The notes beneath the pieces were generated by a model, which ran no database searches, was not told the origin of the DNA, and saw nothing but the letters and a program-made list of their open reading frames with translations. 64,000 nt of DNA from Flavobacteriaceae bacterium PS02337 (lineage in GTDB: Bacteria > Bacteroidota > Bacteroidia > Flavobacteriales > Flavobacteriaceae), in contig JASCOE010000005.1 of the NCBI GenBank assembly GCA_029959285.1, forward strand, positions 295,626-359,625, given 5' to 3'. Made by a program: the position numbers and the translations under genes. Of the stretch, positions 12,407 through 34,872 are shown in pieces; the first letter of the stretch is position 1, and the number at the start of each line of letters is the position of its first letter.

Positions 12407-12444
12407 CTACAATTACGCATAAAAATGCGCGCAGAAGTCATCTT

Positions 12445-12525
12445 ACTTTTCCCTACGCTAGTATGAACTAGATCAGGTTCAGAGGGTAAAATCTCAGCCT
12501 ACAAGTTTGTAGACACCCCTAAAGT
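12445..12525 (-). promoter_or_regulatory. TPP riboswitch (THI element)
   Basis: Read on the minus strand, the element has the conserved THI-box segments in order: GGGGTG, the GCTGAGA pyrimidine-binding loop, ACCC, GAACCTGATCTAGTT and TAGCGTAGGGAA. The variable arm CTACAAACTTGTAG forms a small hairpin. A closing helix ACUUU/AAAGU pairs 12525-12521 with 12449-12445. It precedes thiS and would repress the operon when thiamin pyrophosphate is bound. Confidence 0.95.
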
Positions 12526-12531
12526 GTGAAG

Positions 12532-25785: not shown

Positions 25786-25821
25786 TCTTCATTTTTTCTT
25801 CATGTTGTGAAGGTAATTTTG
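25786..25821 (+). promoter_or_regulatory. Activator-type promoter of small secreted protein 1
   Basis: A direct repeat TCTTCAT-N4-TCTTCAT (25786-25792 and 25797-25803, 11-bp period) is followed after exactly 10 nt by the -7 box TAATTTTG (25814-25821). There is no ordinary -33 TTG in the gap. The ATG lies 44 nt after the end of the box. The same layout recurs at 28294-28329. The arrangement resembles binding sites of OmpR/PhoB-type regulators. Confidence 0.75.
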
Positions 25822-25864
25822 ATCTGTAAAATAAAAGGTTATTAATTCTTAAATCTTAGAAATC

Positions 25865-26074
25865 ATGAGAAATTTATTAATGTTACTAGTAGCAGTTTTA
25901 GGAACAAGCGCAATGGTTCAAGCATTTCCAGCAAAAGCAGGAAAAGAAGTTGCAGCAAAAGAAGTAAAAGCAACAAAACATCCTAAACACAAATCTTCTA
26001 AAAAAGCTAAAGCAGAAAAAACTGAAGCTAAAACAGAAGCCCCAAAAACAGAAACTGCAAAAATGAAAAAATAG
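25865..26074 (+). CDS. Small secreted Lys/Ala-rich protein 1
   Basis: The 69-residue product has a signal peptide (MRNLLMLLVAVLGTSAMVQA) and a mature part of about 49 residues that is mostly Lys, Ala, Glu, Thr and Pro, strongly basic and surely disordered. It shares KEVKATKHPKH...KKAKAEKTEA with the protein at 28373-28558, so the two are paralogues. The composition recalls E. coli Asr, an acid-shock periplasmic protein, but there is no evidence of descent. It is expressed from an activator-type promoter, has its own terminator and lies 181 bp before the response regulator gene. Confidence 0.8.
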   Translation: MRNLLMLLVAVLGTSAMVQAFPAKAGKEVAAKEVKATKHPKHKSSKKAKAEKTEAKTEAPKTETAKMKK

Positions 26075-26149
26075 TATGTTTTTTGTTTTGTTTTCAATGC
26101 ATTGTTTGAAAGCAAAACAGGAAGGATAATTATGAAGAATGCAGGTGTT

Positions 26150-26182
26150 AAAAGCTGATAAAGAAATTTGTCAGCTTTTTTC
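26150..26182 (+). terminator. Terminator after small secreted protein 1
   Basis: AAAAGCTGA and TCAGCTTTTTT form the stem with a T-run. The core AAGCTGA/TCAGCTT is the same as in the terminator after the second small gene (28609-28640), supporting duplication of the whole transcription unit. Confidence 0.85.
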
Positions 26183-26255
26183 GTTAATATTTTAAAAACG
26201 CATAATTTGGTTTTTTATAAATGATTACTTTTAATTGTGCTTAACACTTTTGGTT

Positions 26256-26930
26256 ATGAATGTTTTGATTGTAGAAGATAATCGAGAACTTGCGGTAGAA
26301 GTTTATGATTTTTTATGTAATGCGGGTTATATCTGCAAAATCACGCACACTTGTGCTGATGCTTTGGAAGAATTTAACAGCAACGATTACGATGCTATGC
26401 TTCTAGATTTAGGACTTCCGGACGGCGATGGTTTTGAAGTTTTGCAAACCGTTAGAAAAACAAAATCTAAAATGGCAGTAATTGTTTTAACAGCTAGAGG
26501 AGAACTAGATGACAGAATAAATGGTCTGCATCTCGGAGCCGACGATTATCTAACGAAACCTTTTGCTCTTACCGAACTTAGTGCTAGATTATTTGCCGTT
26601 ATTAGAAGAATTCATGGTTTTACTTTAAATAATCTTTCTATTAATGGCTTTGTTTTGCAGCTTCAGGATTATAAAGTGAGTTTTAATGAACAGCCGATTA
26701 ATTTAACTAAAAAAGAATTTGATATTTTTCAATATTTGGTTTTGAATAAAAATCGAGTAATAACGCGTCTTCAGCTTACAGAACATATTTGGGGAGATAT
26801 TTTAGAAGTCAATTCAGATTCGAATTTTATTGATGTTCACGTTCGAAACCTTAGAAAAAAACTAGACAAACACGCACCTATAGATTGGTTTGAAACCGTT
26901 CGAAATGTAGGTTATCGTATAAACGAATAA
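26256..26930 (+). CDS. OmpR-family response regulator
   Basis: The 224-residue protein has a receiver domain (MNVLIVEDNRELA, phosphoacceptor D51 in MLLDLGLPDGDGFEVL, conserved T and K in VLTARGE and DDYLTKPF) and a C-terminal winged-helix DNA-binding domain (LTKKEFDIFQYLVLNKNRVITRLQLTEHIWG, then DVHVRNLRKKLDKHAPIDWFETVRNVGYRI). I start it at ATG 26256, where the family's MxVLIVEDN begins. Family members bind 11-bp-period direct repeats as tandem dimers, which fits the repeats before the flanking small genes. The kinase gene follows 9 bp downstream. Confidence 0.95.
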   Translation: MNVLIVEDNRELAVEVYDFLCNAGYICKITHTCADALEEFNSNDYDAMLLDLGLPDGDGFEVLQTVRKTKSKMAVIVLTARGELDDRINGLHLGADDYLTKPFALTELSARLFAVIRRIHGFTLNNLSINGFVLQLQDYKVSFNEQPINLTKKEFDIFQYLVLNKNRVITRLQLTEHIWGDILEVNSDSNFIDVHVRNLRKKLDKHAPIDWFETVRNVGYRINE

Positions 26931-26939
26931 TATATTCTT

Positions 26940-28274
26940 GTGAAAATAAAACATCAATTAGCCATTTTTAATGCACTGACAAGATTGTTGGTAATTGTAA
27001 TTTTATGGCTAATGCTTCCTATTTTAGTTCAAAATGTAGTTTATCATCATATAAATAATAGTCTTCTCGAAAAAAAGAAGAAATTTATTGAACATCTGAA
27101 TCAGGAAGAAATCAATGATTTTATAGAAAATCCAGATGATTCTACTGAAACTTTTTCCGAGTTTTCGACACTTCATAGCGAGTTTTTAGTTTTATCTCGC
27201 GTTCCAATCAAACCACATCAAAAGAAAACCACTTTTACAAATGAGTATCGCAAAATTGAAAATGAAGAAAGCGAATATCGAATTCTGCAACATCATTTTA
27301 CTTACGAAGCCGAAGATTATCAGCTAGAAATTGGAAGCAGTTTAGCAGAAGTCAACGATTTGACTTTTGTGATTCGTTTCTTTATACTGATTGTTTTTGT
27401 TGTCATCTTATTTATTACTTTCTTGGCTGATACTTTTTATATAGAATATCTTCTCAAACCATTTTATAAAATTATTGATACAAAAATTAGGCGTGTAAAC
27501 GAACCTGAAACTTTCGATCATACTCCGATAAAAGCGGCTTCTCGAGATTTTAGAGAATTAGATTTTGTTTTAAATCAAATGATGGATCGTATTTCGGAAG
27601 TTTTTAAAAAAGAGAAACAATTTATTTCGAATGTTTCTCATGAATTGCTAACGCCAATTGCGCTTCTTAAAAACAAACTCGAAAATTTATTGCAAAATGA
27701 ATCTTTAGATGATAACGCAGTTGATAAAATTGCAGGTTCGTTGAAGACTTTAGATATGCTGAAAAAAATCATTAATAATTTATTGCTGATTTCCAGAATA
27801 GACAATAATCAATATGAAGCAAATGAAGAAATCAATCTTCGAGAAATAGTTACAGATTTGCAAGAAGATCTTCAAGATCGTATTGATGATAGAGAAATTC
27901 AGTTTGTAAATAAAATGCAAAACAGTTTTATCTTTTTAGGAAACAAAACTTTAATTCATATTTTGATTTATAATTTGGTTACCAATGCCGTAAAATACAA
28001 TAAGCCTAACGGAAATATTACGATAGAAGATGGTTTTGCTGAGGAACTATATTTTATTAAAGTAAAAGATTCTGGAATTGGAATGGACGAATCGCAATTA
28101 GAAAAAATCTTCAGCAGATTTGCCAGAATTAGTTCAGATCAAGAAGGGCAGGGGCTTGGGCTTGCTATTGCGCAAAGTATTGCGGCTTTTCACCACATAG
28201 AAATTAAAGTAGAATCTAAATTAGGCAAAGGAACTTCTTTTGTTTTATGGTTTCAAAAGCCAATTAAAAGTTAA
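26940..28274 (+). CDS. Sensor histidine kinase, partner of the OmpR-type regulator
   Basis: The 444-residue protein starts with GTG at 26940, nine bases after the regulator gene. Transmembrane segments at about 13-33 and 143-163 enclose a periplasmic sensor of about 110 residues rich in Glu, Asp and His, with no named domain. Then come a HAMP-like linker, the H-box FISNVSHELLTPIALLKN (H234), the N-box HILIYNLVTNAVKYN, the G1 box KDSGIGMDE and the G2 box GQGLGLAIAQSI. The operon arrangement makes it the cognate kinase. Charged residues in the sensor may sense pH, metal or cationic peptides, but this is inference. Confidence 0.94.
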   Translation: MKIKHQLAIFNALTRLLVIVILWLMLPILVQNVVYHHINNSLLEKKKKFIEHLNQEEINDFIENPDDSTETFSEFSTLHSEFLVLSRVPIKPHQKKTTFTNEYRKIENEESEYRILQHHFTYEAEDYQLEIGSSLAEVNDLTFVIRFFILIVFVVILFITFLADTFYIEYLLKPFYKIIDTKIRRVNEPETFDHTPIKAASRDFRELDFVLNQMMDRISEVFKKEKQFISNVSHELLTPIALLKNKLENLLQNESLDDNAVDKIAGSLKTLDMLKKIINNLLLISRIDNNQYEANEEINLREIVTDLQEDLQDRIDDREIQFVNKMQNSFIFLGNKTLIHILIYNLVTNAVKYNKPNGNITIEDGFAEELYFIKVKDSGIGMDESQLEKIFSRFARISSDQEGQGLGLAIAQSIAAFHHIEIKVESKLGKGTSFVLWFQKPIKS

Positions 28275-28293
28275 AATTTCCTGTAAGACTTTT

Positions 28294-28329
28294 TCTTCAT
28301 TTTGTCTTCATTTTACGATTATATCTTTG
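28294..28329 (+). promoter_or_regulatory. Activator-type promoter of small secreted protein 2
   Basis: TCTTCAT-N4-TCTTCAT (28294-28300 and 28305-28311) stands exactly 10 nt before TATCTTTG (28322-28329), and the ATG is 44 nt after the box. All spacings equal those at 25786-25865, while the surrounding bases differ. It begins 20 bp after the kinase stop codon. Confidence 0.75.
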
Positions 28330-28372
28330 ACTTATAAATAATGAAATAATAATAATCATAAAATTTAAAGTC

Positions 28373-28558
28373 ATGAAAAAATTAGCAATTTTAGCAGTAG
28401 CAGTATTAGGAACATTCTCAATGGTAAACGCTCAAACAACTCCAGCAGCAGCGCCAGCAAAAGAAGTAAAAGCACCTAAACACGAGAAAAAAGCACACAA
28501 AAAAGCAAAAGCTGAGAAAACAGAAGCTGCAAAAGCTGAAACTCCAAAAGCAAAATAA
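28373..28558 (+). CDS. Small secreted Lys/Ala-rich protein 2
   Basis: The 61-residue product has a classical signal peptide (MKKLAILAVAVLGTFSMVNA, cut before QTTP) and a mature part of about 41 residues made almost wholly of Lys, Ala, Glu, Pro, Thr and His (KEVKAPKHEKKAHKKAKAEKTEA...). It has no cysteine or aromatic residue in the mature chain and must be disordered and basic. It is a paralogue of the protein at 25865-26074. It sits directly behind the kinase gene under a promoter with the shared direct repeat and is closed by its own terminator. Confidence 0.8.
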   Translation: MKKLAILAVAVLGTFSMVNAQTTPAAAPAKEVKAPKHEKKAHKKAKAEKTEAAKAETPKAK

Positions 28559-28608
28559 GACAACATTAAATGTTGAAGATTAAATAGTTTTAAAAAGGTT
28601 GGTAGGAG

Positions 28609-28640
28609 AAAAAGCTGAAAGAGCCATCTTTCAGCTTTTT
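28609..28640 (+). terminator. Terminator after small secreted protein 2
   Basis: A 14-bp stem AAAAAGCTGAAAGA/TCTTTCAGCTTTTT with loop GCCA ends in a T-run. It resembles the terminator of the first small gene. Confidence 0.9.
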
Positions 28641-28697
28641 CTATTTAAGAGCGTTAAATTTTTTATAATAATAAGCGATAGCATTTTCAATCTTTGT

Positions 28698-34618: not shown

Positions 34619-34689
34619 TGGTCTATGGTGTAATGGTAACACAACTGTTTTTGGTGCAGTCTTTCAAGGTTCGAGTCCTTGTAGACCAA
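34619..34689 (+). tRNA. tRNA-Gln (anticodon UUG), first copy
   Basis: A full cloverleaf can be folded: acceptor TGGTCTA/TAGACCA with discriminator A, a D-arm with GGTAA, the anticodon arm ACTGT-TTTTGGT-GCAGT giving anticodon TTG, and the T-arm CAAGG-TTCGAGT-CCTTG. No CCA is encoded: the next bases are C then A-T. It has its own promoter and terminator and an identical copy 180 bp downstream. Confidence 0.96.
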
Positions 34690-34692
34690 CAT

Positions 34693-34798: not shown

Positions 34799-34869
34799 TG
34801 GTCTATGGTGTAATGGTAACACAACTGTTTTTGGTGCAGTCTTTCAAGGTTCGAGTCCTTGTAGACCAA
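34799..34869 (+). tRNA. tRNA-Gln (anticodon UUG), second copy
   Basis: The sequence is identical to that at 34619-34689 over all 71 bases. The whole unit of promoter, tRNA and terminator is repeated with a 180-bp period, so it is a tandem duplication, with divergence only in the flanks. Confidence 0.96.
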
Positions 34870-34872
34870 CAT

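Follow-up and report, generated by a model that had tools for sequence, protein, structure and literature searches.

Architecture of the locus

The window, a 64,000-nucleotide stretch of contig JASCOE010000005.1 of Flavobacteriaceae bacterium PS02337, carries on its plus strand the genes for an OmpR-type response regulator and a histidine kinase, flanked by genes for two short exported proteins that we call small1 and small2 (gene order: small1, regulator, kinase, small2). The features of this locus are as follows.

25786-25803, + strand: operator 1, direct repeat TCTTCATTTTTTCTTCAT (two CTTCAT halves); exact match, one of two genome-wide
25814-25821, + strand: −7 promoter box TAATTTTG, 27 nt after the first base of the repeat; TAnnTTTG consensus
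25865-26074, + strand: small1, exported Lys/Ala-rich protein, 69 residues; from open reading frame, paralogue search and composition
26150-26179, + strand: intrinsic terminator hairpin of small1; folding z −4.5
26256-26930, + strand: OmpR-type response regulator, 224 residues, ATG start; from domain matches, with a DNA-recognition segment kept in other genera
26940-28274, + strand: membrane histidine kinase, 444 residues, GTG start; acidic extracytoplasmic sensor at residues ~30-146
28294-28311, + strand: operator 2, direct repeat TCTTCATTTTGTCTTCAT; exact match
28322-28329, + strand: −7 promoter box TATCTTTG, offset as at operator 1; TAnnTTTG consensus
28373-28558, + strand: small2, exported Lys/Ala-rich protein, 61 residues, paralogue of small1; from open reading frame, paralogue search and composition
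28607-28642, + strand: intrinsic terminator hairpin of small2; folding z −3.7

A preliminary description of this DNA had placed a regulator-kinase operon (26256-28274) between two genes for paralogous, secreted, basic proteins rich in Lys and Ala, with similar terminators. This outline is borne out, and all four genes were found at or near where it had put them. A search of the whole genome with small2 (E up to 1) retrieved no sequence other than small2 (E 2.3e-30) and small1 (63% identity, E 2.3e-8), the sole pair found in this way. Each protein begins with a signal sequence ending in AxA (cleavage after this motif is our own reading of the sequence), which leaves a mature part of 49 residues in small1 and 41 in small2 that is mostly Lys and Ala, contains two His, and has a calculated isoelectric point (pI) of ~10 and a net charge of +10 and +7, respectively. 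Neither protein belongs to a Pfam or NCBIfam family above cut-off. The two terminator hairpins share the stem AAAAGCTGA/TCAGCTTTT, and a simple terminator scan flagged neither of them. Since the regulator gene follows small1 and its terminator, read-through past that terminator could serve regulator expression.

A direct-repeat operator common to both small genes

Upstream of both small genes lies the direct repeat TCTTCATTTT[T/G]TCTTCAT, whose two CTTCAT halves have an 11-bp period (CTTCAT-N5-CTTCAT); this operator had been missed in the preliminary description and is new here. At both genes a TAnnTTTG box starts 27 nt past the first C of the repeat. In Flavobacterium, the main sigma factor (sigma-A) has TAnnTTTG as its −7 box (PMC9723704). 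The fixed offset to this box means that the repeat covers the −33 region. An OmpR-type activator is expected to work from that position, and direct-repeat operators are usual for the OmpR-type regulator fold.

The exact repeat occurs twice in the genome of 5,697,118 bases, both times at this locus. With up to two mismatches the repeat alone is uninformative (14 matches in this genome versus 17 for the reversed control), and the composite of operator and promoter, with up to three mismatches allowed, gives two perfect sites and two weak ones (two and three mismatches), the reversed control giving one. As the composite adds just these two weak sites, we reject a larger regulon in the window's genome. 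A composite site with two mismatches (L159, contig C33, ~69906) lies 73 nt upstream of a gene for an exported PepSY-like protein; that protein is below its Pfam cut-offs, and the case is too weak for us to claim the gene as a regulon member. The neighbours of three paralogous kinases (L154, L198 and L199) look PepSY-type, and, given the two observations, related regulators may use related operators.

Identity of the regulator and the kinase

The regulator has Response_reg (88 bits) and Trans_reg_C (81) domains and the kinase HisKA (42.3) and HATPase_c (82) domains, all over their Pfam cut-offs, which makes the pair an OmpR/PhoB-family response regulator with a HisKA-type kinase. Closer assignments fail. 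The best NCBIfam match of the kinase is PorY (NF052314), with 262.9 bits over residues 3-423 where the curated cut-off is 350, and a PorY identity is rejected on this score; four other kinases of the same genome do pass that cut-off, and the 1.5-kb flanks of these four loci contain no CTTCAT repeats. For the regulator, the best NCBIfam matches are PmrA (184.7; cut-off 330) and the heavy-metal CztR/SilR/CopR model (173.8; cut-off 279.2), both far too low for either identity to be accepted, and its 143.7 on the Bacteroidota PhoB model, where 270 is needed, leads us to reject phosphate regulation.

The segment DSN[FY][IV]DVH[VI][RK]NLR[KH]K, which we take to be the recognition helix, is common to the regulators read from Flavobacterium, Pedobacter and a genus of another family in the same class, here called g53 (5 of the 89 loci compared gave no regulator under the filter used). 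In the kinase, the sensor region has a net charge of −10 and is negative in 67 of 69 relatives, a sample that leaves out relatives more than 93% alike as well as L117 and L141; its conserved positions include R.IE, L, F.Y and LEIG. Fold prediction suggests, with modest confidence, a PAS/Cache-like mixed α/β domain (the model of the whole kinase has a mean predicted local distance difference test score, pLDDT, of 68.3). A structure search with the sensor gave middling matches, none decisive, which we do not use as evidence; neither the PhoQ nor the PmrB sensor is among the matches listed, which says nothing either way.

Conservation in the genus and among close relatives

The preliminary description had proposed asking in relatives whether the small genes always accompany the kinase, and the association is indeed there. 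The genus and class genome sets are samples, the kinase searches scored only the best candidates in each genome (at most 17 for the genus, 8 for the family and 4 for the class, so that some kinases may be missed), and small genes were counted with our own composition filters (Lys/Ala-rich or basic open reading frames with a crude signal test). Within these bounds the kinase is present in 27 of 101 genus genomes (E 1e-60 or better), and at all 27 loci the repeat and a small exported Lys/Ala-rich gene lie directly 3′ of it; an upstream small gene is found at 22 of the 27, and a second upstream copy at 7. Of the 101 genomes, 24 contain the exact operator TCTTCATTTNNTCTTCAT, every one of them kinase-positive, and 37 of the 38 operator sites adjoin the kinase; the reversed pattern has a single site in all 101 genomes. 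In the window's own family, one genome of 199, the window's own, has the kinase at E 1e-100.

Among 80 named GTDB loci, 73 have a small gene and the repeat (one mismatch allowed) within 1.5 kb downstream of the kinase; these 80 are the best-scoring of at least 516 relatives, so that the fraction describes close kin; further out the picture is patchier. One of the 73 (L144) is from a Sphingobacteriales assembly and its kinase is 41% identical, and the seven exceptions are L106, where the contig ends just past the kinase, and six Pedobacter loci. The 27-nt offset between repeat and box is kept at 138 of 149 repeat sites. In some lineages (e.g., L130, L133, L150) the repeat lies shortly upstream of the regulator gene, which suggests autoregulation there. 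Together, the exclusive common operator, the fixed promoter geometry and the conservation across genera leave hardly any room for the idea that the small genes are unrelated neighbors of the two-component system, and we reject it, having found nothing in its favor.

The small genes of the genus look coding but fast-changing. Third codon positions vary most, both in the downstream genes (0.366 versus 0.263 and 0.207; 26 of 27 genes) and in the nearest upstream copies (0.360 versus 0.247 and 0.211; 21 of 22 loci), the remaining genes having been dropped by the filter, and codon differences that change the amino acid outnumber silent ones. Within otherwise variable sequences the short core KEVKA recurs, and a number of members have His pairs. 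In some small proteins (L057 of genome G054, L079, L150) the KEVK(A) core is doubled or tripled, as if the motif itself were the functional unit.

These features bear on an alternative in which the exported polycations are feedback peptides that, through binding to the kinase's acidic sensor, turn kinase activity down or up, their main role being to tune the system, much as CpxP, MgrB and SafA tune other kinases. The sensor carries the opposite charge to the peptides in the window and in nearly all relatives counted, a core recurs in the variable proteins and is sometimes repeated, and nearly all exact genus operators are at the kinase locus. We nevertheless consider such a role rather unlikely, given the targets found outside the genus.

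Apparent targets in other families of the class

We scanned 395 genomes of the class for the bare composite CTTCAT-N5-CTTCAT-N10-TANNTTTG and found 36 exact sites. Two genomes of the window's genus account for 4 of them, and the other 32 are spread over 9 of the 11 g53 genomes sampled; for the reversed control, no site was seen in the results table. Among the 29 unique g53 sites read (of 32), 28 precede a gene for a small exported basic protein, with its ATG ~54-81 nt after the start of the repeat, as against 3 of 35 for ordinary TAnnTTTG boxes of the same loci; the exception (L182) lies upstream of the gene for an exported protein of 361 residues with much Tyr, Trp and Gly. The kinase is present in 9 of the 11 g53 genomes (E 1e-102 or better; one further genome has a weak partial match and one has none) and sits there in another gene context, so that its targets are in trans. 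The small proteins of g53 are many, scattered and diverse, without a common core that we could see, and this suits bulk effectors better than feedback peptides.

Two of these g53 regulon members (L175 and L178) are His-rich instead of Lys-rich, which hints at metal or proton binding. A second alternative is an acid- or metal-specific response, in which the small proteins would be periplasmic buffers for protons or metals instead of protectants in general and the kinase would sense low pH or a cation. The His pairs of a number of members and the acidic sensor region would suit it, as would the strong acid induction of asr in E. coli (PMC10746267). The window proteins themselves, however, are Lys-rich with only two His each, and Lys is no buffer near neutral pH; we regard so specific a response as improbable.

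Across the class, related kinases (E 1e-85) occur in 46 of the 395 genomes and 21 of 196 genera, and 9 of these 46 are among the 11 genomes that have exact composite sites. Of 22 further kinase loci in other families, 7, spread over three families, combine a CTTCAT repeat (one mismatch allowed) with an exported Lys-rich gene immediately 3′ of the kinase; at 5 more that position is taken by a small basic exported gene with no repeat. At locus L265 (genome G468) the small basic gene 3′ of the kinase is not preceded by the repeat, and a repeat with one mismatch lies in front of the regulator gene instead; this position suggests autoregulation in that lineage.

Envelope genes among the apparent targets in Pedobacter

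In a search of six whole Pedobacter genomes and the L144 genome with up to two mismatches, 52 sites were found versus 7 for the reversed pattern; downstream genes were read for 48 of the 52, and one representative of each kind was named by Pfam. Such sites precede a gene for a Lys/Ala-rich exported protein (no Pfam family) and one for an RND periplasmic adaptor (HlyD_D23) in all six Pedobacter genomes, and one for an HtrA-like protease (Trypsin_2), with long leaders, in five. A GH18-like protein, just under its Pfam cut-off, follows a site in four genomes, a CarboxypepD_reg protein in two, and a GH19 protein in three, the other three having a similar promoter and no such gene by our open reading frame rule. 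The other sites form a mixed set: L219 and L220, with a membrane protein, exemplify those found in two genomes, and others may be chance. Four CTTCAT-type sites (L212, L204, L244, L245) precede no open reading frame by the same rule but a stretch that seemingly ends in a terminator-like hairpin, L244 and L245 being alike, so small RNAs may be part of the regulon.

Genes of this kind, whose orthologues are repeatedly preceded by such imperfect sites, are what points to envelope stress. They speak against a specific acid or metal response, since an RND adaptor and an HtrA-like protease hint at an envelope cue of wider scope, and against feedback as the main role, since the Pedobacter kinases share the acidic sensor yet appear to have further, different targets. 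In a third alternative the small proteins are extracellular polycations with a matrix, DNA-binding or antimicrobial function. They are exported, basic and repetitive, and come at times in tandem copies, as at the genus loci with a second upstream copy. On the other side, the Pedobacter co-targets look like envelope maintenance genes, and in the window stretch read we noticed no immunity, processing or secretion gene, although no search was aimed at such genes; an extracellular role seems to us very unlikely.

Elsewhere in the window there are a TPP riboswitch at 12433-12530 on the minus strand (Rfam RF00059, 74.2 bits) and tandem tRNA-Gln genes with the same anticodon at 34619-34690 and 34799-34870 on the plus strand.

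Proposed mechanism

From comparative sequence evidence we favor an envelope-stress-type two-component system whose most recurrent output would be a polycationic, probably disordered periplasmic protein, an account that we hold to be probable with considerable reserve. In this system the kinase would sense a cell-surface condition through its acidic extracytoplasmic domain, the proposed cue being damage to the envelope or a condition that leaves anionic material exposed, and would, by homology, phosphorylate the regulator. The regulator, a DNA-binding protein by homology, would bind the tandem CTTCAT-N5-CTTCAT over the −33 region, an operator and geometry established by their conservation, and presumably activate the TAnnTTTG promoters of both small genes. 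The products would be low-complexity polycations, exported by Sec as their signal sequences predict, probably located in the periplasm, and disordered to judge from their composition. Their likeliest job would be that of abundant disordered protectants that bind and shield polyanionic or misfolding envelope components under stress, as reported for E. coli Asr (PMC10746267). The detectable regulon consists of the adjacent genes alone in the window's genome and of scattered Lys-rich genes in g53, with the RND adaptor and the HtrA-like protease apparently co-regulated in Pedobacter. The preliminary description had envisaged a self-contained regulon; the common operator and the association kept at 27 of 27 genus loci and 73 of 80 named loci strongly support the core of that proposal, which is too narrow for the trans targets in g53 and the envelope quality-control genes in Pedobacter.

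Several observations weigh against the envelope-stress account. The label derives from the Pedobacter targets and not from the window's genome; these targets depend on sites with up to two mismatches, the HtrA-like genes start ~253-404 nt from the site, and the six Pedobacter kinase loci are without an adjacent small gene. Ten of the 22 other-family loci have no small basic gene beside the kinase (L264 has the repeat, nine have neither), and 37 of the 46 kinase-positive class genomes are without an exact composite site. Conversely, no kinase passed the cut-off in 2 of the 11 genomes that have exact composite sites; these two are 57% and 52% complete. One exact genus site (G094:C39) lies away from the kinase, upstream of an unrelated gene that looks to us like a tRNA methyltransferase. 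Furthermore, acidic sensor regions may be common among kinases; our charge count covers relatives of the window kinase.

A bolder extension, to which we give little chance, would make the system a charge homeostat. The acidic kinase and the disordered polycations that it induces would form a closed loop, in which the polycations neutralize anionic material exposed at the envelope and, by binding the sensor as well, turn it off; the whole would be an envelope-stress system widespread in the Bacteroidia but undescribed, whose ancestral output was low-complexity proteins.

To our knowledge the mapping of envelope-stress regulators in Bacteroidota is poor, and exported proteins that are small and of low complexity usually stay annotated as hypothetical. 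The promoter signature described here picks out genes for such proteins in more than one family and links them to a single kinase lineage. It yields a defined regulon, an operator open to testing and a group of probably disordered proteins with a searchable physiological cue.

Comparison with known systems

Among the open-access papers that our searches listed, none was recognized as a description of the effector family, operator, locus or regulon. A mutation in an OmpR-family regulator of F. johnsoniae, FJOH_RS14175, which may or may not correspond to the window regulator, is listed in one article (PMC10197871).

Among Bacteroidota the PorY-type kinases are the closest by NCBIfam match; the window kinase differs in scoring under their cut-off, and the four PorY-type loci of the same genome in being without CTTCAT repeats in their flanks. 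The regulator resembles those of PmrAB and of heavy-metal (CusRS-like) systems, its best NCBIfam matches, but remains far under the PmrA and CztR/SilR/CopR cut-offs. The CpxAR system with CpxP/Spy is alike in combining an envelope kinase with small periplasmic effectors, and the HtrA-like protease and RND adaptor among the apparent Pedobacter targets add to the likeness. The window proteins are nonetheless far under the cut-offs for CpxR (regulator 124.9 bits; cut-off 341) and CpxA (kinase 106.6; cut-off 486), CpxP and Spy are folded helical proteins, and the CpxP/Spy Pfam family gave no match for the window proteins or the small-protein members searched.

The nearest parallel in kind is RstBA-Asr of E. 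coli, in which asr, the gene for a small exported basic low-complexity protein, is regulated by the OmpR-family two-component system RstBA. In the 2-kb stretch read, asr lies apart from its regulator genes, whereas the small genes of the window adjoin the kinase operon, and the RstBA-Asr operator is not known to resemble the CTTCAT repeat. Asr itself is described as an intrinsically disordered chaperone (PMC10746267). Both small1 and small2 have the Asr-type features of a small exported basic low-complexity protein, with an AxA signal sequence and a pI of ~10. No acid-shock family is among the Pfam matches up to E 10 for five small-protein members, although the search filters drop most weak matches. 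The likeness to Asr drawn in the preliminary description thus holds for size, charge and two-component control and fails at the level of family: the small proteins are Asr-like in kind, not Asr by family. The system would be of a known kind, that of a kinase with a dedicated small envelope effector.

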